Assembly: GCA_902798385.1 (NCBI GenBank)
Contig: CADBWK010000007.1
Location: 37,781 to 101,780 of the forward strand
Reading direction: 5' to 3'
DNA: 64,000 nt
From: an uncultured Bacteroidales bacterium
GTDB lineage: Bacteria > Bacteroidota > Bacteroidia > Bacteroidales > Paludibacteraceae
The notes under the pieces were generated by a model. The model was not told the DNA's origin. It made no database searches and saw only the letters and a list, made by a program, of their open reading frames with translations. The position numbers were made by a program, and so were the translations under genes. Of this stretch, positions 207-61,723 are shown one piece after another (position 1 is the stretch's first letter; every line of letters begins with the position of its first letter).

Positions 207-1523
207 TTATATTATTTCTCCGTATAAATCAAACTCCTCCGCCTTGGTGATCTTCACATTCACAAAATTTCCAATTTCCAATTGCCCATTTCCATTGTTC
301 TCAACGAGAACTTCGCAATCCACCTCCGGACTGTCGTATTGGGTGCGCCCGATCCAGTAGTCGCCATCTTGGCGGTCGAGAATGACCTTCTGCGTTGTGC
401 CCACTTTCTGCGCCATCAGCTCGCCGCTGATCTCCTGCTGGATTGCCATCAACTCGGACGCCCGCGCTTCCTTTGTTTCCTGCGGGATATCGTCCTTGTA
501 ATGCTTGTTGGCGTACGTGCCTTCTTCGTCCGAGTACGCAAAGCATCCCATCCGCTCAAACCGCATCTCCCGTACCCACGCTTTCAGCGCCTCGAAATCC
601 TCGTCCGTCTCACCCGGGTGCCCCACCAACAGGGTCGTCCGGATACAGATACCCGGCACTTTCTCCCGGATCTTACGGATCAGCGCATCCTGTTCGGTCT
701 GCGTGATATGTCGCCGCATCAGCCCCAACATGTGGTCGGTACAATGCTGCAGCGCGATATCGAGGTACTTGCACACGTTTTGATGCTTGGCCATCACGTC
801 CAACAACTCCTCCGGAAAATCCGTCGGGTAGGCGTAATGTAACCGTATCCATTCAACACCTTCTATCTGCGCTATCTCATCGATCAACTCCGGCAACATA
901 TGGCGTTTCTCTATGTCCAGCCCGTAGCTGCTCAAGTCCTGTGCGATCACATTCAGTTCCTTTACGCCCTGACTCACCAGCCATCTTACTTCGTCTAAGA
1001 TCTCCGCCTTCGGTCGACTCGTATGTCGTCCCGTGATGAGTGGAATCGCGCAGTACGAACAAAATCTATTGCATCCCTCTGATATCTTCAGGTAGGTATA
1101 GTGCTTGGGTGTGGTGAGACTCCGCTCAAACCACGGGTAAAGTCTAGGATTAGTACCTATTGCATAGGCGCCGAGTAGGTCTTTGATGCCTTGGAAATCG
1201 AATTTGCCAAAATACGCATCCACCTCCGGCAGTTCCTCTTCCAACTCCGCCCGATAGCGCTCACTCAGGCATCCCATCACGATCAGCGTCTTCAGCTTCC
1301 CTTTCTTCTTCCGCTCCGCCATCTGGAGGATCATGTTGATGCTCTCTTCTTTCGCGTCTCCGATGAATCCGCAGGTGTTGATCACGCATACTTCCCCTTT
1401 TGGCTCTTCCGGGTCATGTACACACGTCCATCCCGCCGCCTCCATTTGCCGCATCACCCGCTCTGCATCCACCAGGTTCTTTGAACACCCGAGCGTTATG
1501 AAATCGATTTCTCCTTTGTGCAT
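207..1523 (-). CDS. rimO: Ribosomal protein S12 methylthiotransferase RimO
   Basis: RimO is a radical-SAM enzyme that puts a methylthio group on the conserved aspartate of ribosomal protein S12. The 438-residue protein has the N-terminal MTTase domain (LGCSKNLVDAE; VINTCGFI) whose cysteines bind the auxiliary cluster, the radical-SAM motif CNRFCSYC (CxxxCxxC) near residue 150, and a C-terminal TRAM domain. Length is normal for RimO. Its ATG overlaps the recQ stop by one base (TAATG), which points to translational coupling. A period-7 repeat array at 266-300 codes for part of the TRAM domain (residues about 408-419, NGNGQLEIGNF). The family assignment is firm. Confidence 0.95.
   Translation of the reverse strand: MHKGEIDFITLGCSKNLVDAERVMRQMEAAGWTCVHDPEEPKGEVCVINTCGFIGDAKEESINMILQMAERKKKGKLKTLIVMGCLSERYRAELEEELPEVDAYFGKFDFQGIKDLLGAYAIGTNPRLYPWFERSLTTPKHYTYLKISEGCNRFCSYCAIPLITGRHTSRPKAEILDEVRWLVSQGVKELNVIAQDLSSYGLDIEKRHMLPELIDEIAQIEGVEWIRLHYAYPTDFPEELLDVMAKHQNVCKYLDIALQHCTDHMLGLMRRHITQTEQDALIRKIREKVPGICIRTTLLVGHPGETDEDFEALKAWVREMRFERMGCFAYSDEEGTYANKHYKDDIPQETKEARASELMAIQQEISGELMAQKVGTTQKVILDRQDGDYWIGRTQYDSPEVDCEVLVENNGNGQLEIGNFVNVKITKAEEFDLYGEII
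266..300 (-). repeat. Period-7 array inside rimO (5 units)
   Basis: Reading the + strand, the units are AATTTCC, AATTTCC, AATTGCC, CATTTCC and ATTGTTC. On the coding strand the unit is GGAAATT, which has no stop codon in any frame. It lies in the TRAM domain of RimO. Confidence 0.75.
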
Positions 1524-3706: not shown

Positions 3707-3728
3707 AACAAAAATTCCAATTTGGGCA

Positions 3729-11357: not shown

Positions 11358-13829
11358 TCATTTTATCATTCTAAATCGTCCCTTACTTCCTTTCCGTACG
11401 ATGAATGTACATTGTCCGGCGAAGGCATGCATCTGCGGTTCTACGAAGCTGTCCAGACAAGCGGCGTCTCCGTTTGCAGCGGCTACAAAGCCGTCACCCT
11501 GATACGCTATCAGGTTATTCGCCTTTGGACAAAGGTTGCCCGCCTTATCTACTACGCGTACGGTCATGTAGCAGAGCTCCTCGGGATGCTCATCCTCATT
11601 CGCCCAAACAACCTCTAGATGATCCGGTTCTCCGGCGGTTTGAATCGTCTCACGCGCTGCTTCTTTGCCTTCCTCATCATACGCTACTACGGTGATCTCT
11701 CCTGCCTCATAGGGCACGTCAAACCACATCAGTCGATAGCGCGGTAACAACTCCGGTCTTGGCGCAGAACCCCAAACGGGTACTTCAAAATCTGCAACCT
11801 TCGGCATCTGGCTCACGCCTTCGATTGTCTCGCCCTTTGCCAAGCGCGCTGTCTCTTCCGCCGTGGCAAAACGCAGTTTACCGTAGCTCTTACCGTTCAC
11901 GAAAAGCTCCGCGCTCGGGTAGGTTGTGTAGCAGAAGATAGGCACTAAGTCACCTTCGTTCCAGTTCCAATGCGGCAGCACATGCAAAGTGGCGTCCTCT
12001 TTGTTCCATTGGCTGCGATAGAGCCAGTACCGGTCTTTCGGCAGCGAGGCCAGATCAATGATGCCGAAATAACTGCTGTGACTCGGCCACGCGTCCGTGT
12101 CATAGGGCGACGGCTCACCTAAGTAGTCAAAGCCCGTCCAAACGAACTGACCCAAGGTCCAGTTATAATCATCCTGCAATTGGAAATCCTGTTCGGGCAG
12201 TCCCGACCATGCACAGTACTCCACGTCATAACCGGAAGACTGTTGATCCTTGTAGAGTGCGTCCGGCTGGATGACGGCAGGCGTTTTATATACGCCGCGA
12301 CTCGAGACGGTGCTGGCTGTCTCCGAACCCAGAATCATCTTCTGTGGCAAGTGCTCATAGCCCTCTTCATAGCGGCTCGTACGATAATTGAAGCCAGGGA
12401 TCTCTACTGCTGCACCGAAGCCGTTGTGGATGACGTACATCGCCTGATCCATGCCGTTTGTCACGGGGCGGGTGGGGTCGAGTTCATGGAAGAGCGCCTG
12501 CAGATTGGTCACGATCTCAATGCCGTCCGGCAGCACTTGGTTCCATACCTCGTTACCGCTCGACCACAGCATAACAGAGGCGTTATTGCGATAGTGCTTG
12601 ACCATATTCGTGATGTCCCATTTCCACCAGTCGTTGAAATCTTTGCTGTAGTCATTCTCGGTCTTGCCGTGGTTCCACACGTCAAACGGCTCGATCATCA
12701 TCATCATACCCATCTCATCGCAGAGCTCTACGAGTTCCGGCGCGGGCATGTTATGACTCGTACGGATGGCGTCGCACCCCATGGCTTTGAGCATCGTGAT
12801 CTGGTGACGCAGCGCATCCTTATGAACGGCAGCGCCCAACGGACCTAAGTCATGGTGATTGCAGACACCCTTGAACTTACGGGTCTTGCCGTTGAGTTGG
12901 AACCCATGCTCGGGTGTATAACTCAGACTGCGGATACCAAACACCGTCTCTTTCTCGTCAATGAGTTCTGAAGGCTGATGGCTGACTTCTGACTGCTTAT
13001 AAACTCTCGTACGTGCGGTGTATAGATGCGGAGTCTCGGGGCTCCATAACTGCGGGTTCATCACCTCGGCTACAGCCTGCTGCCCTTCCGCCGTCGCTAC
13101 GACCTTACCCTTATAGAGGATATCGGTCTGAATACTGAATTCTGAATCCTGAATGCTGAGCGGCTCCACCCCGTTTTGCAGTTCTACTGCGATCGTCACT
13201 TGGGCGAACTCTTTGCTCACTTTCGGCGTACGCACCAGCACACCGAAAGTCGGGATATGAATCGGATGCGTCTCTACGAGGTGTACGTTGCGGTACAAGC
13301 CTGCGCCCGGATACCATCGGCTCTGCTGGGGTTTGTTCTCCAGATACACATCGATATCCACGCTATCTGAATGCTGATGGCTGAATGCTGACGGCAGTAT
13401 ATAGCAGTCAAATGTATTGTATCCGTACGGCCAATACACCATCTCTTCGCCGTTCACATACACGTCCGCATGACTCATCGCGCCGTCAAAGACAAGGGTG
13501 TAGAACTTATCCTTATTCACTTTGACGCGCGTGTGGTAATGTCCCTTACCCATCCACGGCAGACCACCGCTACGACCTGTCTTCCACGTCGGCTCCTTCT
13601 CTCCGTTCTGCACGACGATGACCTCTTGCAAGTCGTTCGCGCGATCAAATGGACCGCTGATCGACCAGTCGTGCGGAACCATGACATCCTGCCAAACGGG
13701 GTTCTCTGTGGTGTCTTGGGTGAACTGCCAGTGACGAAGCAAGGTGTCCGTACGAACAGGTTGTTTCGTGGAGCAGTTACACAAAACCATGCTACCGATC
13801 AGCAGCATGGTAAAAAGATTTTTTCTCAT
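11358..13829 (-). CDS. GH2 beta-galactosidase, putative lipoprotein
   Basis: The product (823 residues) is a glycoside hydrolase family 2 enzyme with sugar-binding, immunoglobulin-like and TIM-barrel domains in the usual order. The acid/base glutamate is in SSGNEV (about residue 427) and the nucleophile in LGSETAST (about residue 503). The N-terminus (MRKNLFTMLLIGSMV, then CNC) looks like a lipoprotein signal with an unusual lipobox, so it is probably membrane-anchored in the periplasm. It would release galactose from galacto-oligosaccharides. Its start overlaps the galM stop by 4 bp. Three separate period-7 arrays (12968-12995, 13128-13162, 13367-13394) code for short insertions rich in Ser, Gln and Ile in the N-terminal beta domains. 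No frameshift is seen. Confidence 0.92.
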   Translation of the reverse strand: MRKNLFTMLLIGSMVLCNCSTKQPVRTDTLLRHWQFTQDTTENPVWQDVMVPHDWSISGPFDRANDLQEVIVVQNGEKEPTWKTGRSGGLPWMGKGHYHTRVKVNKDKFYTLVFDGAMSHADVYVNGEEMVYWPYGYNTFDCYILPSAFSHQHSDSVDIDVYLENKPQQSRWYPGAGLYRNVHLVETHPIHIPTFGVLVRTPKVSKEFAQVTIAVELQNGVEPLSIQDSEFSIQTDILYKGKVVATAEGQQAVAEVMNPQLWSPETPHLYTARTRVYKQSEVSHQPSELIDEKETVFGIRSLSYTPEHGFQLNGKTRKFKGVCNHHDLGPLGAAVHKDALRHQITMLKAMGCDAIRTSHNMPAPELVELCDEMGMMMMIEPFDVWNHGKTENDYSKDFNDWWKWDITNMVKHYRNNASVMLWSSGNEVWNQVLPDGIEIVTNLQALFHELDPTRPVTNGMDQAMYVIHNGFGAAVEIPGFNYRTSRYEEGYEHLPQKMILGSETASTVSSRGVYKTPAVIQPDALYKDQQSSGYDVEYCAWSGLPEQDFQLQDDYNWTLGQFVWTGFDYLGEPSPYDTDAWPSHSSYFGIIDLASLPKDRYWLYRSQWNKEDATLHVLPHWNWNEGDLVPIFCYTTYPSAELFVNGKSYGKLRFATAEETARLAKGETIEGVSQMPKVADFEVPVWGSAPRPELLPRYRLMWFDVPYEAGEITVVAYDEEGKEAARETIQTAGEPDHLEVVWANEDEHPEELCYMTVRVVDKAGNLCPKANNLIAYQGDGFVAAANGDAACLDSFVEPQMHAFAGQCTFIVRKGSKGRFRMIK
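12968..12995 (-). repeat. Period-7 array in GH2 gene, copy 1
   Basis: Plus-strand units are CTGAAGG, CTGATGG, CTGACTT and CTGACTG. They code, on the minus strand, for part of QSEVSHQPSE (about residues 279-288). Confidence 0.75.
13128..13162 (-). repeat. Period-7 array in GH2 gene, copy 2
   Basis: Plus-strand units are CTGAATA, CTGAATT, CTGAATC, CTGAATG and CTGAGCG. They code for LSIQDSEFSIQTD (about residues 223-234). Confidence 0.8.
13367..13394 (-). repeat. Period-7 array in GH2 gene, copy 3
   Basis: Plus-strand units are CTGAATG, CTGATGG, CTGAATG and CTGACGG. They code for PSAFSHQHSD (about residues 146-155). Confidence 0.8.
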
Positions 13830-14821: not shown

Positions 14822-14848
14822 ACACTGTACACTTTACACCTTACACCA
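14821..14848 (-). repeat. Period-7 array at galK/galM junction
   Basis: Plus-strand units are TACACTG, TACACTT, TACACCT and TACACCA. The array supplies the galK stop codon (14841-14843) and forms the entire spacer up to the galM start. Confidence 0.75.
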
Positions 14849-20102: not shown

Positions 20103-20119
20103 CGTTTGCAACAACGATG

Positions 20120-44455: not shown

Positions 44456-44476
44456 TCTCCAATTTTCAATTTACAG
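44435..44476 (-). repeat. Period-7 array at the start of the outer-membrane gene
   Basis: Plus-strand units are TTTCAAA, TTTTCAA, TCTTCAA, TCTCCAA, TTTTCAA and TTTACAG. It spans the stop of the 79-residue protein gene (TTA at 44471-44473), the spacer and the probable TTG start of the barrel protein. Confidence 0.75.
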
Positions 44477-49424: not shown

Positions 49425-50465
49425 ATGAAACATATTCGCATTTTATCATTGATGGTCATCCTGGCGGGTATGTCTTCGTGTAGTGTATCCAACTATCTGA
49501 CGACCACCCGCACCGCTCGTTCGCTCGAGATCAAATCGGACATCAAGCAGATGCCGACGGTGGCGGACCTCGTTGTGGATACCGTTTATGTGCGTAAGGA
49601 TACCGCTTGGACGAACACCGCCAAGTCGTTCACGACCAAGGCCGCGATGCGCGAACTCTTGATCGGTGCGATGATGGAGAAGGCCAATGCCGACTTGATC
49701 ATCCAACCGCGCGAGAACCTCGTGGTTAAGTCGGAGTCCTCGAAGCAACTTATGCGCATGGAGATATATGGCTACCCGGCCAGATATCGCAATTTCCGTA
49801 CCGCTACGGAAGAAGACCTCCGCATACTCAACGGCATTGACCCCAAGCCGGCTAACTACAACACGATCTATATCGGATCGGGTGCACAGCACGGACCGAC
49901 CCTCTCTCCGGTAATAGGTAGTGCGGTGGCGCAAGCTATCACACCCGCACCGAATGTAGCACCGAAAGGCGCAGGCAAAGGCTATCTGAGAAAACCGTTC
50001 TACTCCTCCATCGAGATGGGTTATAACGTGTTCTTCCCGATTACCGGTGAAGGCGATGTAGCACATGGATTCCTCGTTAACACGAATTACCTGTGGCGCA
50101 TGAAGAACCCGCATATCTACGAAGGTATGGGTATTGGTGTGAATGCTACTTTCGAGCAGTATTACCGTGAGTGGCTCATTCCGATGTACTGGCACAACCG
50201 CTTCTATTGGTCCAAGACCGCGGTCGCTCCGTTCTTTGACTTCCGTCTCGGTGCCTGGATGGGCGTAGCGCAAGCAAAGGTGAGCGCGAACAACTGGAAA
50301 GGCATGTTCATGGGAGGTATGTACTATGCTGCTTTCCTCGGACTCGAGTTCGGCAAGCACTTCAACATCTCTGTTGGTTCGGATCAGTTCTTAGGTGGAG
50401 CTGCCGAATACAACGATGTGATGTTCACGCTGAACGTAGTAGCGAAGATAGGCATCAATTTCTGA
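49425..50465 (+). CDS. Lipoprotein domain fused to an outer-membrane barrel-like domain
   Basis: The 346-residue protein starts with a lipoprotein signal (VILAGMSSC). Residues about 20-135 are a paralogue of the whole preceding protein (TRTARSLE; ANADLIIQPRENL; GYPARYRNFRTATEED). A proline- and alanine-rich linker (ITPAPNVAPKGAGKGY) leads to a beta-rich domain of about 155 residues (FYSSIEMGYNVFFPITGE ... VVAKIGINF) ending in phenylalanine, like an outer-membrane barrel. A protein with both a lipid anchor and a barrel is unusual. Its last 11 bp overlap the 3' end of nadD on the other strand. Confidence 0.78.
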   Translation: MKHIRILSLMVILAGMSSCSVSNYLTTTRTARSLEIKSDIKQMPTVADLVVDTVYVRKDTAWTNTAKSFTTKAAMRELLIGAMMEKANADLIIQPRENLVVKSESSKQLMRMEIYGYPARYRNFRTATEEDLRILNGIDPKPANYNTIYIGSGAQHGPTLSPVIGSAVAQAITPAPNVAPKGAGKGYLRKPFYSSIEMGYNVFFPITGEGDVAHGFLVNTNYLWRMKNPHIYEGMGIGVNATFEQYYREWLIPMYWHNRFYWSKTAVAPFFDFRLGAWMGVAQAKVSANNWKGMFMGGMYYAAFLGLEFGKHFNISVGSDQFLGGAAEYNDVMFTLNVVAKIGINF

Positions 50466-50982
50466 TCGCCTTTTCCCGTATTTGTGTAGAAGACACATCG
50501 AAATACGGTGCATCAGCCAGGAATGTAATGTTCCTGGCTTTTTTGATGCATGCGGGGCGGGATGTCTCACAACCGTGTCGCGGATAAACGAAGATTCGGA
50601 AGTTGTCGAGAATAAAGTCATACTCCCGCCAGCGGTCGAAGATAGCGAGGTTGTCCTCGCCGATGAGCAGGGTGAAGTCATGCTCGGGATAGGCTTTGCG
50701 CAACTCCCGTAAGGTGTTGGCCGTATAAGAAGGGCGGGGCAGAGCGAACTCAAAATCTGAGGCAACCAGTCCGGGGATGTCCTTAACGGCTTCCCGAACA
50801 GCGGCTAAGCGTTCCTCTTCACTCTTGGCTCTTAGCTCTTCGCTTTCGACTTTTAAAGGGTTAAGAGGGCTGACCAGCAGCCATAGTTCATCGAGGTCTG
50901 TATGCTCGATGACCCACTTCGCCAAACCCACATGTCCGAAATGGACGGGATTGAAACTGCCTCCGTAGATACCTATCTTCAT
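50455..50982 (-). CDS. nadD: Nicotinate-nucleotide adenylyltransferase
   Basis: NadD adenylates nicotinate mononucleotide in NAD synthesis. The 175-residue protein has the nucleotidyltransferase motif GGSFNPVHFGHVGLA and the C-terminal DVSSTQIREK. The ATG at 50982 overlaps the dnaE stop by 4 bp (ATGA). A period-7 array codes for residues about 43-54 (LKVESEELRAKSEE), a position where NadD normally has a short loop. Confidence 0.94.
   Translation of the reverse strand: MKIGIYGGSFNPVHFGHVGLAKWVIEHTDLDELWLLVSPLNPLKVESEELRAKSEEERLAAVREAVKDIPGLVASDFEFALPRPSYTANTLRELRKAYPEHDFTLLIGEDNLAIFDRWREYDFILDNFRIFVYPRHGCETSRPACIKKARNITFLADAPYFDVSSTQIREKAIRN
50821..50855 (-). repeat. Period-7 array in nadD
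   Basis: Plus-strand units are ACTCTTG, GCTCTTA, GCTCTTC, GCTTTCG and ACTTTTA. Confidence 0.75.
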
Positions 50983-53900
50983 TCTTTGGTGATGGGATGG
51001 AAATCCAGTACGCCGTCGGCGCGTTGTTCGCTGAGCCATTTATAGAACCGCGGGGTGACACGGATGGCATTGGAGCGGCTCGTGAGCGCCACCTGATGGC
51101 GGTTGATGGGATTGAAGATCGACACATGCAGACGTCCGTTGCCCTTGTTCGCCTTGATCTCATCCGCCAACTCATCGATGATCTCGTTATTGATCGCATC
51201 CAGCGACAAGCGGATATTGATGCCTTCGGTGCGCTTGTCCTGTACCTCGTTGAGCATCGTCACGTTCTGTACCACGAACTCATACTCCGCCACATCGTCC
51301 GGTGCTTCACGGAACCATTTCTGTCCGGCGCCTTTCTGCTGTACCACACCCGTGACGAGTACATACAGATCCTTGAGCATCATATGGGCGAACTGGTTAT
51401 ACGCATTGCCGAACAGCGCGAAATCATAGGTGCCCGTGTAGTCGGTGATGATGTATTTGCCGTAAGGATTGCCTTTCTGACTGATACGCTGCTCCGCCGA
51501 GGTGATGATACCGCCGATGAGGCAGGCTTGGTTCTTATGCTTGGCGAGGAACTCCGAGGGCAGCAGCTTGGGTTCATCCGGCTCTGCTGCCATCTCCTGT
51601 TTGATCCGAACCTCCGCGTCCTTACGTGCCTCGGGTTTGCGCCACAACTCGAACTGCATCAACTCATTCGCCGTCACGTTGCATAACTCACGTACCTCGT
51701 ACTCGTACTCATCCAGCGGGTGCGCGGAGAGGTAGATGCCGATGAGGTCTTTCTCTTTGTTGAGGCGCTCGATCGTGTTCCAGCGCGGCACTTGCGGCAG
51801 TTCGGGATGCTTGATCTCGATCGCGATATCGAAATCCGAGAAGAGCGAATTCGTGTTGGAGGCTTGGTCGGCCTGCCATTTCTGACCGTAGTTCATCAGC
51901 AGATCGAGTCCGGACTGACCGTTCTCATCCACGCCGAAGAACTGCTCCCGATACAGATCTTTGAAGCACTCGAAAGCACCCGCCTGCGCGAGGTTCTCGA
52001 TCGTCTTGCGGTTACAGCTCTGCAGGTTGACGCGCTCCAGGAAATCGAAGATGTCTTTGTACTTACCGTTCTTCTCGCGCTCGGAGATGATGACATCTGC
52101 GGCACCTTCGCCGACGCCCTTGATACCACCCAGACCGAAACGGATAGCGCCGTCGTGGTTGACGGTGAAGGTCAACTCGGACTCGTTCACATCGGGTTCC
52201 AACACGCTGAGGCCGAGCGCCTTGCATTCGTCCATGAGCTTGGTCACCTCTTTGATATCGTCCTTGTGGACGGTGAGGTTAGCCGCCATGAACTCCGCGG
52301 GATAGTGCGCTTTGAGGTAACCGGTCTGGTACGCCACCCATGAGTAGCAAGCTGCGTGCGATTTATTGAAAGCGTAGGAGGCGAATTTCTCCCAGTCTGC
52401 CCAGATCTTATTGAGGATCTTCTCGTCATGTCCGTTGGCTTTACCGCCTTCCATGAACTTATCTTTGAGGCTCGCCAGAACTGCCATCTGTTTCTTGCCC
52501 ATAGCTTTTCGGAGCTTGTCGCTCTCGCCGCGGGTGAAGTTCGCCAGCAGTCGGCTCAGCAGCATGACCTGCTCTTGGTAAACCGTGACACCGTAGGTGT
52601 CCTTGAGGTATTTCTCCATAACGGGAATGTCGTACGTCACCTCTTCGAGACCCTGCTTACGCTTGATGAACTGCGGGATGTAGTCCATCGGACCCGGACG
52701 GTAGAGGGCATTCATCGCGATGAGGTCCCCGATGACCGTCGGCTTCAACTCACGCAGGTATTTCTGCATACCCGCGGACTCGAACTGGAACACCGCCACC
52801 GTGCGTCCTTCCTGGAAGAGCTTATAGGTCAACTCGTCGTCGATAGGTATATGATCTATGTCGATATCGATGCCGCGCGCTTTCTTGACGTTGCGCAGAC
52901 ACTCCTTGATGATCGTCAGCGTGATAAGGCCAAGGAAGTCCATCTTGATCAGGCCCACGCTCTCCACCACATGCCCGTCGTACTCTGTCACCAGTACCCG
53001 TTTCTTGCTGTTCTTATCTTCTACGGAAGACAGCGGCGCGAAGTTCGTCAGGTCGTCTGCACCGATGATCACGCCGCAGGCGTGTACACCCACTTGCCGG
53101 ATCGTACCTTCGAGTCGTGCTGCGTACTCGAGCATCGAACGCGTGTTGGGATCACCGGTCTCGTACTCGCGTTTCAACTCCTCGATGTACTTATAGCAGT
53201 TCTTGAGGTTCACTTTCGGACGCTTGGCATCCTTCGGCAGGTCTTTGAGGACGCTATCGGGGAAATCGCGATCGGGCACATAACTCTTCAACTCATTCAC
53301 AAAAGCCAGCGGCACTTGTTGTACGCGCCCTACATCTGCGAGCGCGGACTTCGTCGCCATCTTACCGTAGGTCACGATATGCGCCACATGTGTCTCGCCG
53401 TACTTGCGGCTCACGTAGTCCAGCACCTTGCCGCGTCCGCAATCCTCGAAGTCGGTATCGATATCAGGGAGCGAGATACGGTCGGGATTCAAGAAACGCT
53501 CGAACAGCAAGTCGTACTTGAGCGGGTCGAGATCGGTGATCTTCAGACAGTAGGCCACCACCGATCCTGCGGCACTACCACGACCCGGTCCAACGGACAC
53601 ATCGAGCTCCTCGCGCGCCGCGCGGATGAAGTCCATCACGATGAGGAAATAGCCCGGGAAACCCATGGAGATGATCGTGTTGAGCTCGAACTCGATACGC
53701 TCTTTCAGTTCCTCGTCGTTGGCCAATCGCTCTTCGCCGTACCGCTCTTTCGCGCCCTCCATCGTCAGGTGGCGCAGGTATGCCGACTCAAACGCCAGAC
53801 GGTCGGGATAGTCCTCTTCTTTGCCGAACGAAGCAGGGATGTCGAACTTCGGCATGATCGGTCCGTGGTCGATGTCATATACCTCCACTTTGTCCACGAT

Positions 53901-54776
53901 CTCCTGCGTGTTCTCCAGCGCCTCGGGGATGTCAGCGAAGATAGCCGCCATCTCATCGGGCGTCTTGATCCACTCCTGCTTGGTATAATGCATTCGGTTG
54001 ACGTCGTTCACGTAGTGGTTCGTGCTCAAGCAGATCAAGCGGTCATGCGCCTCGGCGTCCTCTTCGTTCACGAAGTGGGCATCGTTGGTCGCGATGATCT
54101 TGATGCCGTACTTATGCGCGAGTTCGATCAGGATGGGGTTGACCTGCTTCTGTCGCTCGTACACCTCCACATCAGCCCCGGGCTTCTGCGTCTCATGACG
54201 CTGGATCTCTATGTAATAATCCTCTCCGAAGAGGTTCTTGAACCATTTGACGGTCTCTTCCGCTTCGCTGAAATCGCCGCCTTTGGCGATACCCTCGAGG
54301 ATCTTCTGCGGCAACTCGCCACCCAGACAAGCCGAACAGCAGATGATGCCTTCGTGCCATTTCTCGAGCAGCTCTTTATCGATACGCGGGGTGTGATAGA
54401 ACGCATCAGACATGTAACCGTGCGAGACGAGCCGGCAGAGGTTATGATAACCCTCCATGTTCTTTGCCAGCAGGATGAGGTGCCAACCCGAGCGGTCGAT
54501 GGCATACGTACGTCCCTCACCGTTGACGGCTTTCTCATCGGTCATCGAGTGACGACCGCGACGCGCACAGTAAGCCTCCGTACCCACGATGGGCTTGAAG
54601 CCTTCTTTCTTCTTGCAGTAGTCCAGCAGGTCTTTGATGCCGTACATGTTGCCGTGATCGGTCAGTGCCACGGCGTTCATCCCGGAGGCAATACACTTGT
54701 CCACTATCTCTTCCACCTTACTCAACCCGTCCAGCAGCGAGTAATGACTGTGTACATGTAAATGCGTAAAGTTCAT
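50979..54776 (-). CDS. dnaE: DNA polymerase III alpha subunit
   Basis: DnaE is the replicative polymerase. The 1265-residue protein has the PHP domain (FTHLHVHSHYSLLDG), the catalytic palm (GPGRGSAAGSVVAYCL; LPDIDTDFED with the metal aspartates), fingers (YRPGPMDYIPQF; SYAFNKSHAACYSWVAYQTGYLKAHYPAEFMA), a helix-hairpin-helix and an OB fold (QACLIGGIITSAEQRISQKGNPYGK). The ATG at 54776 is chosen from the family start. A longer frame crosses the promoter region and the EamA gene. The dnaE-nadD order forms an operon. Confidence 0.97.
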   Translation of the reverse strand: MNFTHLHVHSHYSLLDGLSKVEEIVDKCIASGMNAVALTDHGNMYGIKDLLDYCKKKEGFKPIVGTEAYCARRGRHSMTDEKAVNGEGRTYAIDRSGWHLILLAKNMEGYHNLCRLVSHGYMSDAFYHTPRIDKELLEKWHEGIICCSACLGGELPQKILEGIAKGGDFSEAEETVKWFKNLFGEDYYIEIQRHETQKPGADVEVYERQKQVNPILIELAHKYGIKIIATNDAHFVNEEDAEAHDRLICLSTNHYVNDVNRMHYTKQEWIKTPDEMAAIFADIPEALENTQEIVDKVEVYDIDHGPIMPKFDIPASFGKEEDYPDRLAFESAYLRHLTMEGAKERYGEERLANDEELKERIEFELNTIISMGFPGYFLIVMDFIRAAREELDVSVGPGRGSAAGSVVAYCLKITDLDPLKYDLLFERFLNPDRISLPDIDTDFEDCGRGKVLDYVSRKYGETHVAHIVTYGKMATKSALADVGRVQQVPLAFVNELKSYVPDRDFPDSVLKDLPKDAKRPKVNLKNCYKYIEELKREYETGDPNTRSMLEYAARLEGTIRQVGVHACGVIIGADDLTNFAPLSSVEDKNSKKRVLVTEYDGHVVESVGLIKMDFLGLITLTIIKECLRNVKKARGIDIDIDHIPIDDELTYKLFQEGRTVAVFQFESAGMQKYLRELKPTVIGDLIAMNALYRPGPMDYIPQFIKRKQGLEEVTYDIPVMEKYLKDTYGVTVYQEQVMLLSRLLANFTRGESDKLRKAMGKKQMAVLASLKDKFMEGGKANGHDEKILNKIWADWEKFASYAFNKSHAACYSWVAYQTGYLKAHYPAEFMAANLTVHKDDIKEVTKLMDECKALGLSVLEPDVNESELTFTVNHDGAIRFGLGGIKGVGEGAADVIISEREKNGKYKDIFDFLERVNLQSCNRKTIENLAQAGAFECFKDLYREQFFGVDENGQSGLDLLMNYGQKWQADQASNTNSLFSDFDIAIEIKHPELPQVPRWNTIERLNKEKDLIGIYLSAHPLDEYEYEVRELCNVTANELMQFELWRKPEARKDAEVRIKQEMAAEPDEPKLLPSEFLAKHKNQACLIGGIITSAEQRISQKGNPYGKYIITDYTGTYDFALFGNAYNQFAHMMLKDLYVLVTGVVQQKGAGQKWFREAPDDVAEYEFVVQNVTMLNEVQDKRTEGINIRLSLDAINNEIIDELADEIKANKGNGRLHVSIFNPINRHQVALTSRSNAIRVTPRFYKWLSEQRADGVLDFHPITKE

Positions 54777-54794
54777 AAAATCCAAATTTGGGTG

Positions 54795-54826
54795 CAAAAT
54801 TACAAAAACATTTTGACATATGCAAA
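54795..54826 (-). promoter_or_regulatory. Promoter of dnaE-nadD
   Basis: Minus strand: TTTG at 54826-54823, 20 bp after the TTG, TAATTTTG at 54802-54795. Confidence 0.75.
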
Positions 54827-54842
54827 TTTTTTTGTACCTTTG
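54812..54842 (+). promoter_or_regulatory. Promoter of EamA gene
   Basis: TTTG at 54812-54815, 19 bp spacer, TACCTTTG at 54835-54842. The two divergent promoters share the element TTGACATATGCAAA, so their -33 boxes lie face to face. Confidence 0.72.
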
Positions 54843-54851
54843 CAAGCTGAA

Positions 54852-55793
54852 ATGAAAAAAGATATAACATCCTACTTGGCAGTAGGGGCGTTGGTGGTGT
54901 CCATGATCATCTGGTCGGTGAGCGGAATCGCCATCAAACATGCCTTGGCAGTACTGCCTCCGTTCACGATGATCGTGATGCGTTTTGTGCCTTCGGTACT
55001 GCTGATGCTGGTCATCGGCCTTATCTGCCGCAAGAGTGCGTTGTTCCGCCTGCAGAAGATGGAACTCAAAGATCTGCCGCTCTTTTTGGTGGCGGGCTTC
55101 TGTCAACCCTTCCTGTACTATATGTTAGAGACCTACGCGTACGATGCGCTCAACAGTCCGACGATCGCGGAGACGCTGCTCTCAACGAGTCCGCTGCTCA
55201 GTCCGATCTTCGCCGCCATCCTTCTCAAAGAGCGGGTGACGAAGTACAACATATGGGGTATTCTCATCTCGACGGCCGGTGTTTTTGCGCTCACGTTAGC
55301 GGGTAGCACGAACTACTCGATCGGTAACTACTGGGGCATCCTGTTGGCTTTCGCGGCGGTGTCGGCGGCGGTGATTGACTCGGTCATGATGCGTAAGGCA
55401 CCCATGACCTACAGTTCGCTCTCGTTCATCTTCTATACGCAGTTGGTGAGCCTCTGTTTCTTTATCCCGATCTGGCTCATCAAAGAAGGACCGGAAACGA
55501 TTTACCAATTACCAATTACCATTTACCAATCCGAGATGCAAGTAGCGTTAGGTTGCGTGGCCTATCTCACGGTCTTTGCATCCGTGATAGCGTTCATCCT
55601 GTTCTGTTATGCGTTGCGGAAAGTAGGTGTGACGCAGGCGAATGCGTTCAATAACATCCGTCCGGCGTTCACGGCGCTTTGGATGATTCTCTTCTTCGGC
55701 GAACACCTCCCGCTTGCCAAATGGGTAGGCATGGGATTAATCATTTTCGGATTATTTGTATGCCAAATGAAAGAAAAAGTTTCCGATTGTTAA
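54852..55793 (+). CDS. EamA/DMT-superfamily transporter
   Basis: This 313-residue inner-membrane protein has about ten membrane helices in two EamA repeats (SMIIWSVSGIAIKHAL; YNIWGILISTAGVFALTLAG and later NAFNNIRPAFTALWMILFFGE). Members export amino acids or other metabolites. The substrate is unknown. The ATG at 54852 is chosen because the longer frame covers the promoter. A period-7 array codes for residues about 217-226 (IYQLPITIYQSE), in a loop between helices. Confidence 0.9.
   Translation: MKKDITSYLAVGALVVSMIIWSVSGIAIKHALAVLPPFTMIVMRFVPSVLLMLVIGLICRKSALFRLQKMELKDLPLFLVAGFCQPFLYYMLETYAYDALNSPTIAETLLSTSPLLSPIFAAILLKERVTKYNIWGILISTAGVFALTLAGSTNYSIGNYWGILLAFAAVSAAVIDSVMMRKAPMTYSSLSFIFYTQLVSLCFFIPIWLIKEGPETIYQLPITIYQSEMQVALGCVAYLTVFASVIAFILFCYALRKVGVTQANAFNNIRPAFTALWMILFFGEHLPLAKWVGMGLIIFGLFVCQMKEKVSDC
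55502..55529 (+). repeat. Period-7 array in EamA gene
   Basis: Units are TTACCAA, TTACCAA, TTACCAT and TTACCAA. Confidence 0.8.
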
Positions 55794-55867: not shown

Positions 55868-56677
55868 ATGCCGATAGAAAACATTTACTCTATTGATTTC
55901 TTTTACGACTTGCTGTACATCATGTTTTTGGTGGGCTTAGTCGTGTTCGTATCCCTGTATTTTGTGGATGCCGGTTATGGTAAGATGCGTTCGGAGAAGT
56001 GGGGACCTGCGATGAACAACAAGGTAGGTTGGCTGCTGATGGAGTGTCCGGTGTTCTTCGTGATGCTGTATCTCTATTTCAAGTCCTTCCCGCTCTACGA
56101 CGGCGTGACGAAGAATGCTCCGTACTGGTTGTTCTTCCTGTTCTTTGAGTTCCATTATTTCCAGCGCTCGTTCATCTTCCCCTTCATGCTGAAGGGAAAC
56201 GGCAAGATGCCGGTGGTGATCATGATGCTGTCTGTGATCTGGAACCTCATTAACGGTTATATCCAGGGCTATTGGCTCTTCCATCTGGCGCCGCAACATT
56301 ATCCGGAGTTGTACACCTCGTCGTGGATAACGAGTCCGCAGTTCATCATCGGTACGATCATCTTCTTCACGGGTTGGATCATCAACATGCACTCGGATCA
56401 TGTGATTCGTCACTTGCGTAAGCCGGGTGACACGAACCACTACCTGCCGAAGAAAGGTATGTACAAGTACGTGACGAGTGCGAACTATCTGGGTGAGATC
56501 ACGGAGTGGTTAGGTTTTGCGATCCTTACCTGGTCGCTGGCAGGACTGCTGTTCTTCTGGTTCAGTTGCTGCAACCTCGTGCCGCGTGCGAACTCGATCT
56601 ACCTCAAGTACGAACAGGAGTTCCCCGATGAGTTCGACCGCAAGAAACTCAAACGAATCATACCGTTTATTTATTGA
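55868..56677 (+). CDS. 3-oxo-5-alpha-steroid 4-dehydrogenase family protein
   Basis: The 269-residue membrane protein has about six or seven membrane helices and the C-terminal block of the steroid 5-alpha-reductase family (FFTGWIINMHSDHVIRHLRKPGD; YVTSANYLGEITEWLGFAILTWS; ANSIYLKYEQEFPDEFD). These enzymes reduce the C4-C5 double bond of 3-oxo-4-ene steroids to the 5-alpha form with NADPH. The next two genes encode an old-yellow-enzyme reductase and an SDR, the set used by gut Bacteroidales to make 5-alpha/5-beta and 3-beta-hydroxy bile acids. Family assignment is strong. A bile-acid substrate is inferred. Confidence 0.88.
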   Translation: MPIENIYSIDFFYDLLYIMFLVGLVVFVSLYFVDAGYGKMRSEKWGPAMNNKVGWLLMECPVFFVMLYLYFKSFPLYDGVTKNAPYWLFFLFFEFHYFQRSFIFPFMLKGNGKMPVVIMMLSVIWNLINGYIQGYWLFHLAPQHYPELYTSSWITSPQFIIGTIIFFTGWIINMHSDHVIRHLRKPGDTNHYLPKKGMYKYVTSANYLGEITEWLGFAILTWSLAGLLFFWFSCCNLVPRANSIYLKYEQEFPDEFDRKKLKRIIPFIY

Positions 56678-56717
56678 TCAATGACCAATAACCAAAAACC
56701 AATGACCAATAACAAAT
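56676..56717 (+). repeat. Period-7 array at the 5-alpha-reductase/OYE junction
   Basis: Units are GATCAAT, GACCAAT, AACCAAA, AACCAAT, GACCAAT and AACAAAT. The array spans the end of the first stop codon, the spacer and the first twelve codons of the OYE gene. Confidence 0.8.
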
Positions 56718-57982
56718 TGTTCTCCCCCTATAAACTGGGACCTATCACGCTGCGGAATCGTATTATCCGCAGCGCTGCTTTTGAAAATATGGCGCGTGCG
56801 AATGCACCGACCAAGGAGTTGCAGGATTATCATGTGTCCGTAGCGCGCGGTGGTGTAGGCATGACGACGGTCGCGTACTGTGCGGTGGATCAGAGCGGTG
56901 TCTCTTTCGACGGCCAGCTCTACGTTCGTCCGGAGATCATCCCCGACATGAAGAAGATGACCGACGCCATCCATGCGGAAGGCGCGAAAGCTTCTATTCA
57001 GTTGGGTCACTGCGGCAACATGACGCATATGTCCACCTGTCATTGTATCCCCGTGAGTGCCGATACATGGTTCAACCTCTACAGCCCGACGATTCACCGT
57101 CGCCTCAAAGTGGAGGAGATCAAGACCATCGTGAAGCATTTCGGTGAGGCGGTGGACTTCGCCCGTGAGTGCGGTTTTGACTGCGTGGAGATCCATGCCG
57201 GTCACGCCTACCTCATCTCGCAGTTCCTGGCCCGTCGTACGAACCATCGTCACGATGCCTATGGCGGTTCTTTCGAGAACCGTGCCCGCTTCATGAACGA
57301 GGTGCTCGATGAGGTGATGATTCATGCCAAAGACGATATCGCCGTGGTAGTGAAGACGAATATGTGGGACGACTGCTGGCAGGGTGTGTCGATCGAAGAA
57401 GGTCTGCAGGTGGCTCGCGAGATCGCGAAGCATAAGGTACACGGCATCGTCCTTTCCGGCGGTACCGTGAGTCGTAGCCCGATGACCATCCTCGGCGGTG
57501 CCATGCCGATCAAGACCCTGGCGCATTACATGTCGATGAAAGATCTGTGGTGGCTCAAGGCTGCCCTGCATATTCCGTTTGTGGGATCGATCATGACGCC
57601 GACCGTACCGTTCAAGGAGCTCTACTTCATGGACAAAGCGAAGTATTTCCAAGAGCAACTCAAGGACATCGATATCCCGCTGATCTATGTGGGCGGTGTA
57701 CAGAGCGGCGATAACTGTCAGCAGATCATGGACGAAGGCTTCGAGCTCTTCCAGATAGCGCACGTGCTGATCAAGGATCCGGACTTCGTCAAACATGTGC
57801 AGGAGAATCCGCACTATAACGCCGGCTGCAAGCGCTCCAACTACTGCGTAGGACGTATGTACAGCAAGCAGATGAAATGCCACGAGTGCGTAGAACGCGA
57901 CGGCGAGCAGATACCGGGCAATATTCAACGTGAGATCGCTAAATTAGAGAAAGATGCTAGCATTAGTAACGGGCGCAAGTAG
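56681..57982 (+). CDS. NADH:flavin oxidoreductase, old yellow enzyme family (5-beta-reductase-like)
   Basis: The 433-residue protein is an OYE-type FMN barrel (LFSPYKLGPITLRNRII; SIQLGHCG; CVEIHAGHAYLISQFL; HDAYGGSFENRARF; LIYVGGVQSG). Near the C-terminus lie four cysteines (CKRSNYC ... CHEC) that could bind an iron-sulfur cluster, as in BaiCD/DCR-type enzymes. The C-terminal nucleotide-binding domains of those longer enzymes are absent. In steroid-converting Bacteroidales a protein of this kind acts as the 5-beta-reductase. The ATG at 56681 lies in a period-7 array, and an ATG at 56702 is possible. It overlaps the SDR gene by 29 bp. Confidence 0.88.
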   Translation: MTNNQKPMTNNKLFSPYKLGPITLRNRIIRSAAFENMARANAPTKELQDYHVSVARGGVGMTTVAYCAVDQSGVSFDGQLYVRPEIIPDMKKMTDAIHAEGAKASIQLGHCGNMTHMSTCHCIPVSADTWFNLYSPTIHRRLKVEEIKTIVKHFGEAVDFARECGFDCVEIHAGHAYLISQFLARRTNHRHDAYGGSFENRARFMNEVLDEVMIHAKDDIAVVVKTNMWDDCWQGVSIEEGLQVAREIAKHKVHGIVLSGGTVSRSPMTILGGAMPIKTLAHYMSMKDLWWLKAALHIPFVGSIMTPTVPFKELYFMDKAKYFQEQLKDIDIPLIYVGGVQSGDNCQQIMDEGFELFQIAHVLIKDPDFVKHVQENPHYNAGCKRSNYCVGRMYSKQMKCHECVERDGEQIPGNIQREIAKLEKDASISNGRK

Positions 57983-58761: not shown

Positions 58762-60278
58762 AATTCCTTCAACGCTCGCTTCAGTTCATCGTCGAAGCGC
58801 AGGTTATAGGCGATCTGCCCTTTCTGGAAGTAGTAGCGGAGCATGATCTCCGCGCCTATGAAATGCTGTACCTCCTCTTTGTTGCGCGATATCGCTTCGC
58901 GGAAATCCGGTGTCAGCACAGGTTCCAGCGCCTCTAACTGCGCGATCGTTGCCGAGTCGAGGTCTTCGTGCTTGGCCATCTTGATCATGTCCGCGAAGAA
59001 CTTGGAGGTCTCGGTCCCGTATTTGAACTTACGCTCGTCCAGGAACGCACAGAAATCATGGATCATCTCGTCCGTCACCTCGAAGTCCGGCAGGGCGGCG
59101 ATGCTGTCATGCAGACGGTGATAGCGCGTAGCGAAATCAAAGAAATAATGATTCATGTAGAGCGTGTAGCAGATGTCTACCTTCGCGCTGTCGTCCATCA
59201 CGATGTCCGGCATGATACCCACACCCTGGATACAACTGTCGGAGGGCAGGTAGTACTTGCTGGTCGTCACTTTCACATGTCCGCCATGCGCCACCGGTCG
59301 TACGTTCTGCACGAGTCCCTTACCGAAAGTCTTCTGTCCGATGAGCGTCGCGCGACCTAAGTCCTTCAACGAACCGGATACGATCTCACTCGCCGAAGCG
59401 GAGTTCTTGTCCACTAAGATGACCAACGGAAGGTCTTTGTAACGCGGGTTGTTACGGGTCTTATAGACATTATTGCTGCGGGCTACTTTACCGCGGGTCT
59501 CTACGATCTTCGTGTCCCGATCGACGAACAGGTTGACGATCTGCAGTGCCTCTTCGACGATACCTCCGCCGTTCCCGCGCAGATCCATCACGAGTGCCCG
59601 CGCGCCTTGGGTGTAGTAGAGTTCGTCCAGCGCATTGGAGAAAGCCTGTGCCGATCCCTCGGTGAACTCCGAGAAAGCGATATAGCCGATCGGATAGGGA
59701 AGGGTGTCCGCCACCAGCGTAGTGGCATAACTGACGGGCTCCAGATGGATGTCTTCGCGCACGATAGACACCTTAAACGGCTTCTCTACGCCCTCACGCT
59801 CGATCTCTAACACGACCGTCGTACCCGGTTCGCCACGCAGGTTATTGCTCACTTCGCTCACATTCATCCCTTTGGTCTTCTTGCCGTCCACCGTCAGGAT
59901 CTTATCGCCCGCGAGGATACCGGCTAACTGTGCCGGCTTGCCCTCGTAGGGGTTGACGGCGTAGATAGCACTGTCGCGCTGCTGGATGATACTGCCGATA
60001 CCGCCGTACTTACCCTGCGTGAGCATACGCAGGTCTTTGTCCTGTTTCTTCGAGTAATAAACGGTGTACGGGTCAATCTTACGCAGCATCGCGCCGATAG
60101 CCGCTTCGGTCAACACCTCATAATTGAGCGTATCGACATAATTGACATCCACCTGACGCATCACGTCATTGAAGATGTCGATCACCTCCGATGCCCGCGT
60201 CGTGGACTGCTGCGCCTGGACGGGAACAAAGATCAACAAGCAAAGAAGAATACTATTAACGAAGCGTGTTCGGAACAT
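58752..60278 (-). CDS. S41-family C-terminal processing protease
   Basis: The 508-residue protein has a signal peptide (FVNSILLCLLIFVPVQAQ), a PDZ domain (GGIGSIIQQRD; LAGILAGDKILTVDGKKTKGM) and the S41 catalytic core: LVMDLRGNGGG, the serine in KNSASASEIVSG and the lysine in IGQKTFGKGLVQ. Such periplasmic proteases trim or degrade exported proteins. I chose the ATG at 60278 from the signal peptide. It overlaps coaD by 23 bp and is last in the prfB operon. Confidence 0.92.
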   Translation of the reverse strand: MFRTRFVNSILLCLLIFVPVQAQQSTTRASEVIDIFNDVMRQVDVNYVDTLNYEVLTEAAIGAMLRKIDPYTVYYSKKQDKDLRMLTQGKYGGIGSIIQQRDSAIYAVNPYEGKPAQLAGILAGDKILTVDGKKTKGMNVSEVSNNLRGEPGTTVVLEIEREGVEKPFKVSIVREDIHLEPVSYATTLVADTLPYPIGYIAFSEFTEGSAQAFSNALDELYYTQGARALVMDLRGNGGGIVEEALQIVNLFVDRDTKIVETRGKVARSNNVYKTRNNPRYKDLPLVILVDKNSASASEIVSGSLKDLGRATLIGQKTFGKGLVQNVRPVAHGGHVKVTTSKYYLPSDSCIQGVGIMPDIVMDDSAKVDICYTLYMNHYFFDFATRYHRLHDSIAALPDFEVTDEMIHDFCAFLDERKFKYGTETSKFFADMIKMAKHEDLDSATIAQLEALEPVLTPDFREAISRNKEEVQHFIGAEIMLRYYFQKGQIAYNLRFDDELKRALKELKK

Positions 60279-60705
60279 AAGCACTAACGTCTTTACCATA
60301 TGCATACAGGTCGCGTACGAGGGTCGAGGATATATGGGCGTACTCAGGACGCGTATAGAGGATGACGGTCTCGATGCCGGCCATCTGTTTGTTCGCCTCC
60401 GCCATATTGCGCTCGTACTCAAAATCACCGATACAACGCATACCGCGCAATATGAACTGCGCCTCTTGCTCTTTCGCAAAATCAACCGTCAGACAGTCGT
60501 ATATAGCTACCTTCACACGCGGTTCGTCGGCGAAGATCTTCTTGATCGCCTCTTCGCGCTCGCGGATGGGGAAAGTCTCGCGTTTGGTACTGTTACGACC
60601 AATGCCGATGATGATCTCATCGAATAACTCTAAGCCACGCTTCACGATATCATAGTGGCCTACGGTAAACGGGTCAAACGACCCCGGAAATATCGCTTTT
60701 TTCAT
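60256..60705 (-). CDS. coaD: Phosphopantetheine adenylyltransferase
   Basis: CoaD adenylates 4'-phosphopantetheine, the penultimate step of CoA synthesis. The 149-residue protein has PGSFDPFTVGHYDIVKR, RGMRCIGDFEYE and the C-terminal ISSTLVRDLYAYG, all standard. It starts inside the end of the acyltransferase gene (32 bp overlap), where a short period-7 array (60704-60724) lies. Confidence 0.96.
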   Translation of the reverse strand: MKKAIFPGSFDPFTVGHYDIVKRGLELFDEIIIGIGRNSTKRETFPIREREEAIKKIFADEPRVKVAIYDCLTVDFAKEQEAQFILRGMRCIGDFEYERNMAEANKQMAGIETVILYTRPEYAHISSTLVRDLYAYGKDVSAYVPNTLR

Positions 60706-61723
60706 ACACTTTAAACTTTAAACTCTTCCGGTGATTGATCACCGGATTATCGTACATTTCATGAATTTTGTCACTTAAAAACTGCTCATCTTTATCGGGG
60801 ATGTCTATCTTCGCCAAACGGCTCTGCAGATAGTCCTCAAAATCTGTGCCACGCTCGAAGATCTCGTACCCTTGGAAAATATGCTGGTCGATGATAAAGC
60901 ACAGATGCTCGATCTGATCTTTGATCGGCAGCCCCTTGTAGTACGGGAATTTCTCTAACATCCGATCGATGTCATGGTTGATGCTCGGCGTGAGACGATA
61001 CACCACGCGTCCTTTCCATCCCTCGATACCCGTACGCATGGACTCTACATCATCTTTCGCACGTTTGCGCCAACGCGGGTTATCGCGCTTGAGTTGCATC
61101 TCGCGGGCCTTGAGATAGTCGCACGGATCGTATTCGTACGTGATGCTGACCGGACAGATATTGAGCGTCTTGATGTAGTCAAAGAACTCCTCCACGGGGC
61201 GGTGCTGCTGCTCAAAATCAATCGTCAGCATGTGCAGTACAGCCGGTTGCGTCGTGTCGTTACTGTCCTTGGCGCGACCTTCGCGTTGAGCCAACCAGAT
61301 GGACTTACCCTGCTGGCGCAGATGACCGATATAGGCACTCAACACCTTCGCGTTCTCCAACTGCGCATGAGCACCCGCACCGCGCTTGACAACAAAACAA
61401 CGGTTGAAACGCACGAACCACTCGATCCATTTGTACGCAAACAAGTTATTCCCGATGCCGATGAACGGACGAATGAAATACTTGCACCGCAGCAACAGCG
61501 ACAGCCACGCCGCGTCCATCACGATATCACGGTGGTTCGTCATGAAGAACGCCCCGTGCTTGATGTCCTTTTCTATCTGCTTGCGGTCACCTAAGTAATC
61601 CAATCGGATGCCCTTGGTCGTGCGCTTGGAGAGTATCCACAACGCCGGAAAATTGATCAGGAAATCGCAGATGGTCAGTATCCATCCAACCCGATATGCC
61701 CGTATGTCTTTAAATCTATCCAT
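60674..61723 (-). CDS. 1-acyl-glycerol-3-phosphate acyltransferase-like protein
   Basis: The 349-residue protein has the PlsC motif TNHRDIVMDAAW (H and D of the catalytic block), the region RFNRCFVVKRGAG and a motif LAQREGRAKD, as in the Bacteroidetes acyltransferases annotated as PlsC- or glycerol-acyltransferase-like. It probably works on phospholipid precursors at the inner membrane. It overlaps the yigZ-like gene by 8 bp and coaD by 32 bp. Confidence 0.85.
   Translation of the reverse strand: MDRFKDIRAYRVGWILTICDFLINFPALWILSKRTTKGIRLDYLGDRKQIEKDIKHGAFFMTNHRDIVMDAAWLSLLLRCKYFIRPFIGIGNNLFAYKWIEWFVRFNRCFVVKRGAGAHAQLENAKVLSAYIGHLRQQGKSIWLAQREGRAKDSNDTTQPAVLHMLTIDFEQQHRPVEEFFDYIKTLNICPVSITYEYDPCDYLKAREMQLKRDNPRWRKRAKDDVESMRTGIEGWKGRVVYRLTPSINHDIDRMLEKFPYYKGLPIKDQIEHLCFIIDQHIFQGYEIFERGTDFEDYLQSRLAKIDIPDKDEQFLSDKIHEMYDNPVINHRKSLKFKVYEKSDISGVV
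60704..60724 (-). repeat. Short period-7 array at acyltransferase/coaD overlap
   Basis: Plus-strand units are ATACACT, TTAAACT and TTAAACT. It codes for SLKFKVYE of the acyltransferase and includes the coaD start codon region. Confidence 0.55.

Follow-up and report, generated by a model that had tools for sequence, protein, structure and literature searches.

Degenerate heptamer arrays, many with constant core words, in intergenic DNA and variable enzyme loops of an uncultured Paludibacteraceae genus

Twenty short, degenerate tandem arrays with a repeat unit of 7 nucleotides (nt) are scattered over the stretch of DNA examined here (the window), which comprises 64,000 nt of contig CADBWK010000007.1 from an uncultured Bacteroidales bacterium of the family Paludibacteraceae (assembly GCA_902798385.1). 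Such arrays recur throughout the genus of this organism, where they occupy intergenic sequence and the most poorly conserved loops of housekeeping proteins (products of rimO, mnmE, yicC, folC, a nadD-type gene and a GH2-type gene), and their units evolve as DNA, with the reading frame acting as a filter. In about half of the unit classes that could be tested, variation is confined to particular positions and leaves a short core word invariant. Recurrent slippage or short-range template switching in mostly 7-nt steps, anchored on these core words, has in our judgement roughly an even chance of being the process behind them. The arrays bear on why 7 nt is a preferred long repeat unit in bacteria: numerous orthologous sites of the genus can be compared in the presence and absence of an array, and the core-versus-spacer signature can tell plain slippage from anchored or motif-driven models. 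Furthermore, loops of housekeeping enzymes that are repeatedly refilled by non-coding repeats represent a kind of protein change outside amino-acid selection.

The genome of the window (G000) is represented by a 1.92-Mb assembly that is 74% complete, of which the window and a further 400 kb were sampled (464 kb, 24% of the assembly). Relatives were taken from the best 80 of 194 MnmE loci (1.47 Mb, with at least one isolate present twice), and the L- and G-numbers used below denote loci and genomes of relatives, respectively. Among named genomes, the closest MnmE relatives are uncultured Paludibacteraceae and Bacteroidales metagenome-assembled genomes, many of whose titles give a ruminant source; a genus-wide search took in 178 genomes. 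The first-pass annotation had listed twenty ranges in the window, and a period-7 array is indeed present in each of them, with lag-7 identity ranging from 0.64 to 0.90. Scanning the window for a lag-7 score of at least 9 and, separately, for any 4-mer repeated exactly at 7-nt intervals in four or more copies yielded 15 arrays each, jointly recovering 19 of the 20, while the array at 28386, the weakest of all, was detected by Tandem Repeats Finder only. When 4-mer cores with at least four copies in the window are sorted by spacing, 7 nt is found 15 times, 11 nt once, and 5, 6, 8, 9, 10 or 12 nt never. In the score scan, the sole window array of periods 5-13 besides those of period 7 is a degenerate 11/22-bp array at 20308-20354, with GTCGTTCACC-like units.

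The preference for period 7 extends well beyond the window. Using a score threshold of at least 12, the 464-kb sample contains 88 period-7 arrays, as compared to a mean of 0.2 in five shuffles that kept each protein, redrew its codons and randomized intergenic DNA with a first-order model, and to none in a single Markov-2 shuffle of the same 464 kb. Periods 8 and 11 are also enriched, albeit far below 7 (11 arrays vs 0, and 8 vs 0.4, respectively, against the codon shuffle), with the remaining periods giving observed counts and shuffle means of 0 and 0.2 (period 5), 3 and 2.4 (period 6), 9 and 3.2 (period 9), 0 and 0 (period 10), 4 and 2.2 (period 12) and 0 and 0.4 (period 13). The excess of period 7 over periods 6 and 8, whose absence from a genome-wide scan would have spoken against the first-pass annotation, is large in this sample. 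Across the 80 loci of relatives, with the threshold raised to at least 14, 170 arrays have period 7, 34 have period 8, 35 have period 11, four have period 6 and none has a period of 2-5; at this threshold a period-7 array is present in 63 of the 80 loci and lacking in 17. Densities per 100 kb in the genus of the window amount to 12.9 in G000, 12.0 in G197 and 6.2 in G228. G013, which belongs to another genus of the family, has 26.3 (76 kb) and G024 has 3.0 (100 kb), and no period-7 array was found in 40 kb sampled from G001. Other genera carry other units: a reversed control pattern with the unit GGTTAAT is common in further genera of the family (G010, G013, G022 and G060), and when up to two mismatches are allowed it matches 60 times in G010, 56 times in G013 and 31 times in G022.

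The units are drawn from a restricted, AT-rich vocabulary (mean GC 0.29-0.41). Two unit families had initially been described for the window, and both are real, but they are part of a larger set, with 21 families obtained by greedy grouping of the 88 arrays of G000. The claim that the same unit occurs in unrelated genes holds far beyond chance: the 88 arrays form 81 identical-unit pairs, as compared to a mean of 3.7 and a maximum of 10 for random genomic heptamers and to 6.5 for GC-matched ones, with similar excesses in G197 (88 pairs vs 2.0 expected) and G228 (43 vs 1.1). In a vocabulary analysis of 318 arrays of the genus from 2.7 Mb, the units fall into 116 classes instead of the 273 expected, and 161 of the 318 arrays belong to classes of at least five members, where 0.5 would be expected.

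Within these classes, deviations from the unit are not spread evenly. Position bias was assessed by randomly rotating each array, with 5000 permutations per class; the arrays came from related genomes, and duplicates were removed only where a 21-nt stretch was shared. Variation was found to be restricted to particular positions in 11 of 23 tested classes (p < 0.05), leaving invariant cores such as CCAAT and GCTGA; the combined Fisher value of about 1e-12 is not a clean probability, given the number of permutations and the relatedness of the genomes. In the AATCTCC class, 1 deviation in 287 is seen at the A, A and T positions as compared to 27 in 263 at the next three, and the ACGGCTG and AATGCTG classes show zero deviation at C, T, G and A. 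The galK array of the window carries four different spacers beside an intact CTGA. Consistent spacing is also evident from the recurrence of the cores themselves: CCAAT/ATTGG recurs 165 times at a distance of 7 (6 expected), 17 times at 6 and 10 times at 8, and GCTGA/TCAGC 124 times at 7 (7 expected) and 8 times at 8, while TAAAT recurs at both 7 and 8 nt. In several period-15 arrays, observed in L026, L079, L171, L172, L185 and L188, a single core recurs after 7 and 8 nt in turn, as in AAATGGT plus AAATGACC. In 106 coding arrays, deviations from the unit amount to 8.0, 6.5 and 7.2% at codon positions 1, 2 and 3, respectively, with 7.8% in noncoding arrays. Because deviations are about equal across codon positions, the constraint acts on the DNA.

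Arrays are denser in noncoding than in coding DNA (26.6 vs 10.1 per 100 kb in the window and the 80 loci), and of 201 arrays counted there, with genes assigned by homology support, 113 lie wholly within genes, 46 outside and 42 on edges. In the window, which had been described as carrying arrays inside and between genes, 15 of 20 lie within open reading frames (ORFs) and the other five (14821, 35506, 44435, 56676 and 60704) at gene junctions or ends. The coding arrays occupy columns with a mean conservation of 0.25 vs 0.75 over the whole proteins (87 arrays), and their consensus unit is stop-free on the sense strand in 90 of 113 cases as compared to 45 of 113 on the antisense strand. Accordingly, identity of G000 to its relatives falls from 0.90 elsewhere in the protein to 0.51 in the array for galK (11 relatives), from 0.84 to 0.32 for rimO (16), from about 0.79 to 0.09-0.20 for the three GH2 arrays (15) and from 0.70 to 0.20 for one YggS-HAD array (19). 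The array at 44293..44355 has an aligned-column occupancy of 0.45 over 23 homologues vs 0.94 for random segments. A 13-unit GCTGANN array at 10565-10659 of L072 forms 33 residues of a 1367-residue protein and is mostly absent from homologues (occupancy 0.20).

Aligning the host proteins, as the first-pass annotation had proposed, reveals at least two arrays that are length insertions relative to homologues, mnmE 45031 (+9 residues) and GH2 12968 (+7 residues). The former covers residues 55-63 of MnmE, where 38-39 of the 40 proteins in the alignment (G000 and 39 chosen relatives) show gaps. In a structure model of moderate quality (mean pLDDT 77, pTM 0.44), used for loop placement only, it is predicted to form a turn between strands 47-58 and 64-77, and the other MnmE array of the window is predicted to follow strand 327-332. 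At the GH2 12968 site, G000, L303, L305 and L306 carry +21 nt, L301 carries +42, L313 carries +21 without a heptamer array, and L304, L307, L308, L311 and L312 are of other lengths. Not every array is an insertion: the galK array at 15771 has the same length in 11 relatives, and length is likewise unchanged against relatives for the GH2 13128 and rimO arrays.

The same loop often holds different sequences in different species. In 17 loci the loop of the nadD-type gene is occupied by arrays, whose units include ATCAGAA, GAAGATT, CAATCAC, TCAATTC and AATGACC, and in other species palindromic inserts or nonamers (as judged by eye) are found instead; the mnmE, yicC and folC loops likewise contain different units or other inserts by species, and the rimO loop has different units in other species. 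In L041-L120, short palindromic inserts occur in frame in the loops of mnmE, yicC, folC and nadD-type orthologs, encoding peptides such as SSRQTGGVASAEKG, PNPSLKGREL and NDEMSEALLLNDEM, and occupy loops that hold heptamer arrays in other species. Octamer arrays are present in the folC loop of L051, L062, L064, L081, L088 and L100. Cross-species overlap of arrays exceeds random placement (MnmE 55 pairs vs 8.2, nadD-type 135 vs 22.3, yicC 15 vs 2.5, folC 51 vs 6.6). However, placement in equally variable columns would give 43.1, 106.4, 17.7 and 30.9 pairs, respectively, and thus largely reaches the observed overlap, so that conserved hotspots beyond loop tolerance were rejected and no sites are claimed beyond permissive loops.

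Array sites also change in length between close relatives. With flanks at least 88% identical, 90 directional and partly reciprocal comparisons from 52 arrays were obtained, of which 51 differ in length as compared to 12 of 615 control comparisons; noncoding sites differ in 25 of 27 and coding sites in 26 of 63. When one comparison per array is kept and reciprocals are removed, 24 of 39 differ, and in nine of these 24 the change is a multiple of 7, where 3.4 such cases would be expected (p 0.004). Examples of such steps are L076/L079 (+7), L081/L088 (-7, -14), L080/L095 (+21, -14) and L077/L105 (-14).

To account for the period, the core/spacer pattern of about half of the tested classes, the loop placement, the turnover and the independence of codon position, we infer a slippage or template-switch step with the core as annealing anchor. 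A genus-wide mutational process would duplicate DNA mainly by 7 nt and less often by 8 or 11. During replication, the growing strand would re-pair via a core word of a few bases, for instance CCAAT, GCTGA or ATTGT, and spacer bases, needing no match, could drift or get swapped. Arrays would then survive where both length and sequence are free, that is in intergenic DNA and surface loops, usually with the stop-free strand as sense, and one loop would come to hold different units, octamers or palindromic inserts by species because its content turns over fast. Several results weigh against anchored slippage of this kind. Position-specific variation misses p 0.05 in 12 of the 23 classes, including AATCACC, AAAGGTG and AAAAATC. 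Simple slippage copies spacers too, and the varied spacers beside the intact CTGA of galK therefore need the assumption of an anchor. In the deduplicated set, 15 of 24 length changes are not multiples of 7, and some sites are wholly replaced, such as the AAATTTG array of L062, which stands opposite a palindromic insert in L064. Moreover, when array-bearing genes are compared with the closest ortholog that lacks an array, multiples of 21 show no enrichment among the 89 nonzero length differences (11, with 12.7 expected), and array births are hence not demonstrated as clean 7-nt additions; the idea that coding loops gain their arrays by exact multiples of 21 was rejected as unsupported, although GH2 12968 fits. 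Finally, a MutS_I domain is encoded in 29 of 31 genomes, including G000, which makes loss of mismatch repair an unlikely cause, and it was rejected as such; a Y-family polymerase domain, found in 26 of the 31, is uninformative.

Among the alternatives, ordinary sequence-independent slippage with a 7-nt preference followed by neutral decay would explain the 7-, 14- and 21-nt steps between close relatives, the diversity of units (the 88 arrays falling into 21 greedy families) and the lack of significant position bias in about half of the tested classes, and the idea of a polymerase footprint is already in print for heptanucleotide repeats (PMC4679880, PMC4692102). Nevertheless, we regard it as unlikely, as the unit vocabulary is much narrower than that of genomic heptamers, decay in 11 of 23 classes is confined to positions that recur from array to array, and intact cores stand next to saturated spacers.

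The first-pass annotation had taken the recurrence of units as an argument for dispersal. A mobile or recombination process would then copy heptamer blocks between loci. Recurrence is indeed far above chance (81 pairs vs 3.7), but by itself it does not prove dispersal. In its favour are the replacement of entire loop content between close species, genome-specific favourite units (AATCTCC-like in G000 and G197, AATTCAC-like in G228) and the greater likeness of nearby arrays, as similar units occur in 28% of array pairs less than 300 bp apart vs 10% in different stretches; such close-range pairs may, however, include split arrays, and their shared strand may reflect gene direction. Shared flanks in G000 are limited to three pairs of neighbouring arrays. 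The 12 pairs of G197 and five of G228 are also mostly neighbours, with a few distant ones (e.g. L161/L165, L165/L166 and L185/L189), and non-neighbouring arrays with shared flanks are likewise seen in G013, the representative of another genus, which has 46 pairs. In the 80 loci, two arrays that a species carries at different sites are not more alike than arrays across species (identical units in 0 of 55 pairs vs 1.5% of 3139), while orthologous sites in different species have identical units in 15.1% of 292 pairs. Within the three sampled genomes, identical pairs make up 2.1, 4.5 and 4.3%, as compared to 2.1, 0.7 and 0.2% between genomes, the rate within G000 equalling that between G000 and G197. 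With flanks and unit sharing giving mixed evidence, dispersal is only partly supported, and we consider it improbable as the general explanation. Similarly doubtful would be a dedicated trans-acting process that writes short words such as CCAAT and GCTGA into the DNA every 7 nt and leaves the spacers free, by templated-core synthesis or core-directed template switching, and thereby continually rewrites permissive loops of essential enzymes in the genus.

Selection might also maintain the cores because a DNA- or RNA-binding protein recognizes them and requires them to be 7 nt apart, as suggested by the strict spacing of CCAAT and GCTGA and by variation independent of codon position; for TAACTGA repeats, cold-shock, S1 or Csr-type candidates have been proposed (MacGregor, PMC4679880). 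Such a role would be hard to reconcile with the many different cores in each genome, with the gain, loss and replacement of arrays at orthologous sites and with their occurrence in both orientations relative to genes (from crude gene calls), and it appears rather remote to us. That the arrays simply reflect selection on the proteins, codon usage or chance, to which the arrays without length change in galK, GH2 13128 and rimO could point, is hardly credible, since synonymous codon shuffling erases the signal (0.2 vs 88), the codon-preserving and Markov shuffles together rule out chance or codon bias, and equal deviations at all codon positions speak against a protein-level origin.

The arrays of the window are compiled in Table 1. 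The GH2-type gene is GalB-like, with a match below the curated cut-off. The gene at 27496-28809 encodes a YggS-type protein fused to a HAD phosphatase; this fusion is present in part of the genus, and elsewhere the two halves match separate places.

Table 1. Period-7 arrays of the window, with positions counted from its first nucleotide; - and + give the strand of the gene.
Unit	Positions	Location	Remarks
AATTTCC/ATTGGAA	266..300	inside rimO (207..1523 -)	residues 408-420
CTGANNN	12968..12995	GH2-type gene (11358..13829 -)	+21 nt vs five array-free relatives
CTGAATN	13128..13162	GH2-type gene	gap-free vs 15 relatives
CTGANNG	13367..13394	GH2-type gene	+3 residues vs most close relatives
TACACNN	14821..14848	galK/galM junction	
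CTGANNN	15771..15798	galK (14841..16022 -)	length unchanged vs 11 relatives
CTGANNN	19777..19804	BtuC/FecCD-type permease gene (19146..20210 -)	
TTTAAAG/TTGAAAG	28272..28299	YggS-HAD fusion gene (27496..28809 -)	
TAATTGG	28386..28420	YggS-HAD fusion gene	weak; cleaner at the same place in ortholog L269
AATTACC	35506..35533	3' end of DegT-type aminotransferase gene	directly upstream of rpoN
ACTCTCG	44293..44355	ORF 43598..44455 -, without family match	9 units, longest in the window
CAATTTT	44435..44476	5' end of ORF 43598..44455 -	
GGTTACG	45031..45065	mnmE	9-residue insertion
ACCAATT/ACCAATC	45873..45907	mnmE, between NKxD and SAK motifs	arrays in this loop in 8 loci including the window
CAGCNNT	46410..46444	yicC	arrays in this loop in 6 loci including the window
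CCAATNT	48422..48456	folC	arrays in this loop in 9 loci including the window
NCTCTTN	50821..50855	nadD-type gene (50455..51039 -)	Pfam CTP_transf_like; name nadD inferred
TTACCAA	55502..55529	EamA-type transporter gene (54762..55793 +)	best family match below cut-off
GACCAAT/AACCAAT	56676..56717	end of 55868..56677 and start of OYE-like gene (56681..57982 +)	
ACTTTAA	60704..60724	junction of ORFs 60256..60705 and 60674..61723	about 2.4 units

Heptameric tandem repeats are known from several bacterial groups. The STRR repeats of cyanobacteria are tandem heptamers, and the STRR2 unit TTGGTCA equals class AATGACC here (four arrays); the other STRR units compared are absent as classes, so that one of four matches. 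Sharing of vocabulary with published heptamers of other phyla is weak, the STRR2 unit being the only exact match. In Rickettsia, palindromic elements are non-coding repeats tolerated in frame in housekeeping proteins; they resemble the palindromic inserts found in the same loops here, while the heptamer arrays are not palindromes.

The closest parallels are discussed in two papers. Heptanucleotide long simple sequence repeats (LSSRs), credited to Mrazek 2007 (via PMC4679880 and PMC4692102), also favour a unit of 7, are scattered over the genome with lineage-specific abundance and have been explained by slippage. As with LSSRs, tandem repeats of unit 7 exceed chance and neighbouring unit lengths in our samples, and whole-unit length changes occur between close relatives (9 of 24 being multiples of 7). 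However, the arrays described here are degenerate, many having a fixed core and a free spacer, and 113 of 201 lie wholly in genes; those of the window lack near-perfect units (lag-7 identity 0.64-0.90), although some arrays elsewhere are near perfect. TAACTGA direct repeats, reported from Beggiatoaceae, Cyanobacteria and a few Bacteroidetes (MacGregor 2015, PMC4679880), are likewise short heptamer arrays of few units at many loci, and 7-nt indels are reported between close Cyanothece strains. They comprise one exact unit and, in the main genome, mostly immediately precede start codons, related heptamers being rare there, whereas the arrays of this genus have many related units and are often inside genes, with 15 of the 20 window arrays internal to ORFs instead of upstream of a start codon; the TAACTGA class is represented by none of the 318 arrays of the genus and by a single array in G013, from another genus. 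The GGGAATC repeats of Xanthomonas and GGGGA(T/C)T repeats of Nostoc (Rehm 2015, PMC4692102) are comparable as dispersed heptamers of variable length at conserved gene neighbourhoods, but they are G-rich and quadruplex-forming, in contrast to the AT-rich units here. The same work describes detailed literature on heptameric repeats as lacking. The first-pass annotation knew of no such repeats in protein genes of Bacteroidales, and in open-licence literature, to which the search was confined, no paper on heptamer repeats in protein genes of Bacteroidales or Paludibacteraceae was found; for the phylum, on the other hand, heptamer repeats of Bacteroidetes are already in print, including two sets in Paludibacter propionicigenes (PMC4679880). 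Thus, heptanucleotide repeats as such are known, while degenerate core-plus-spacer arrays in loops of housekeeping enzymes across a genus are new and, in our assessment, unusual.

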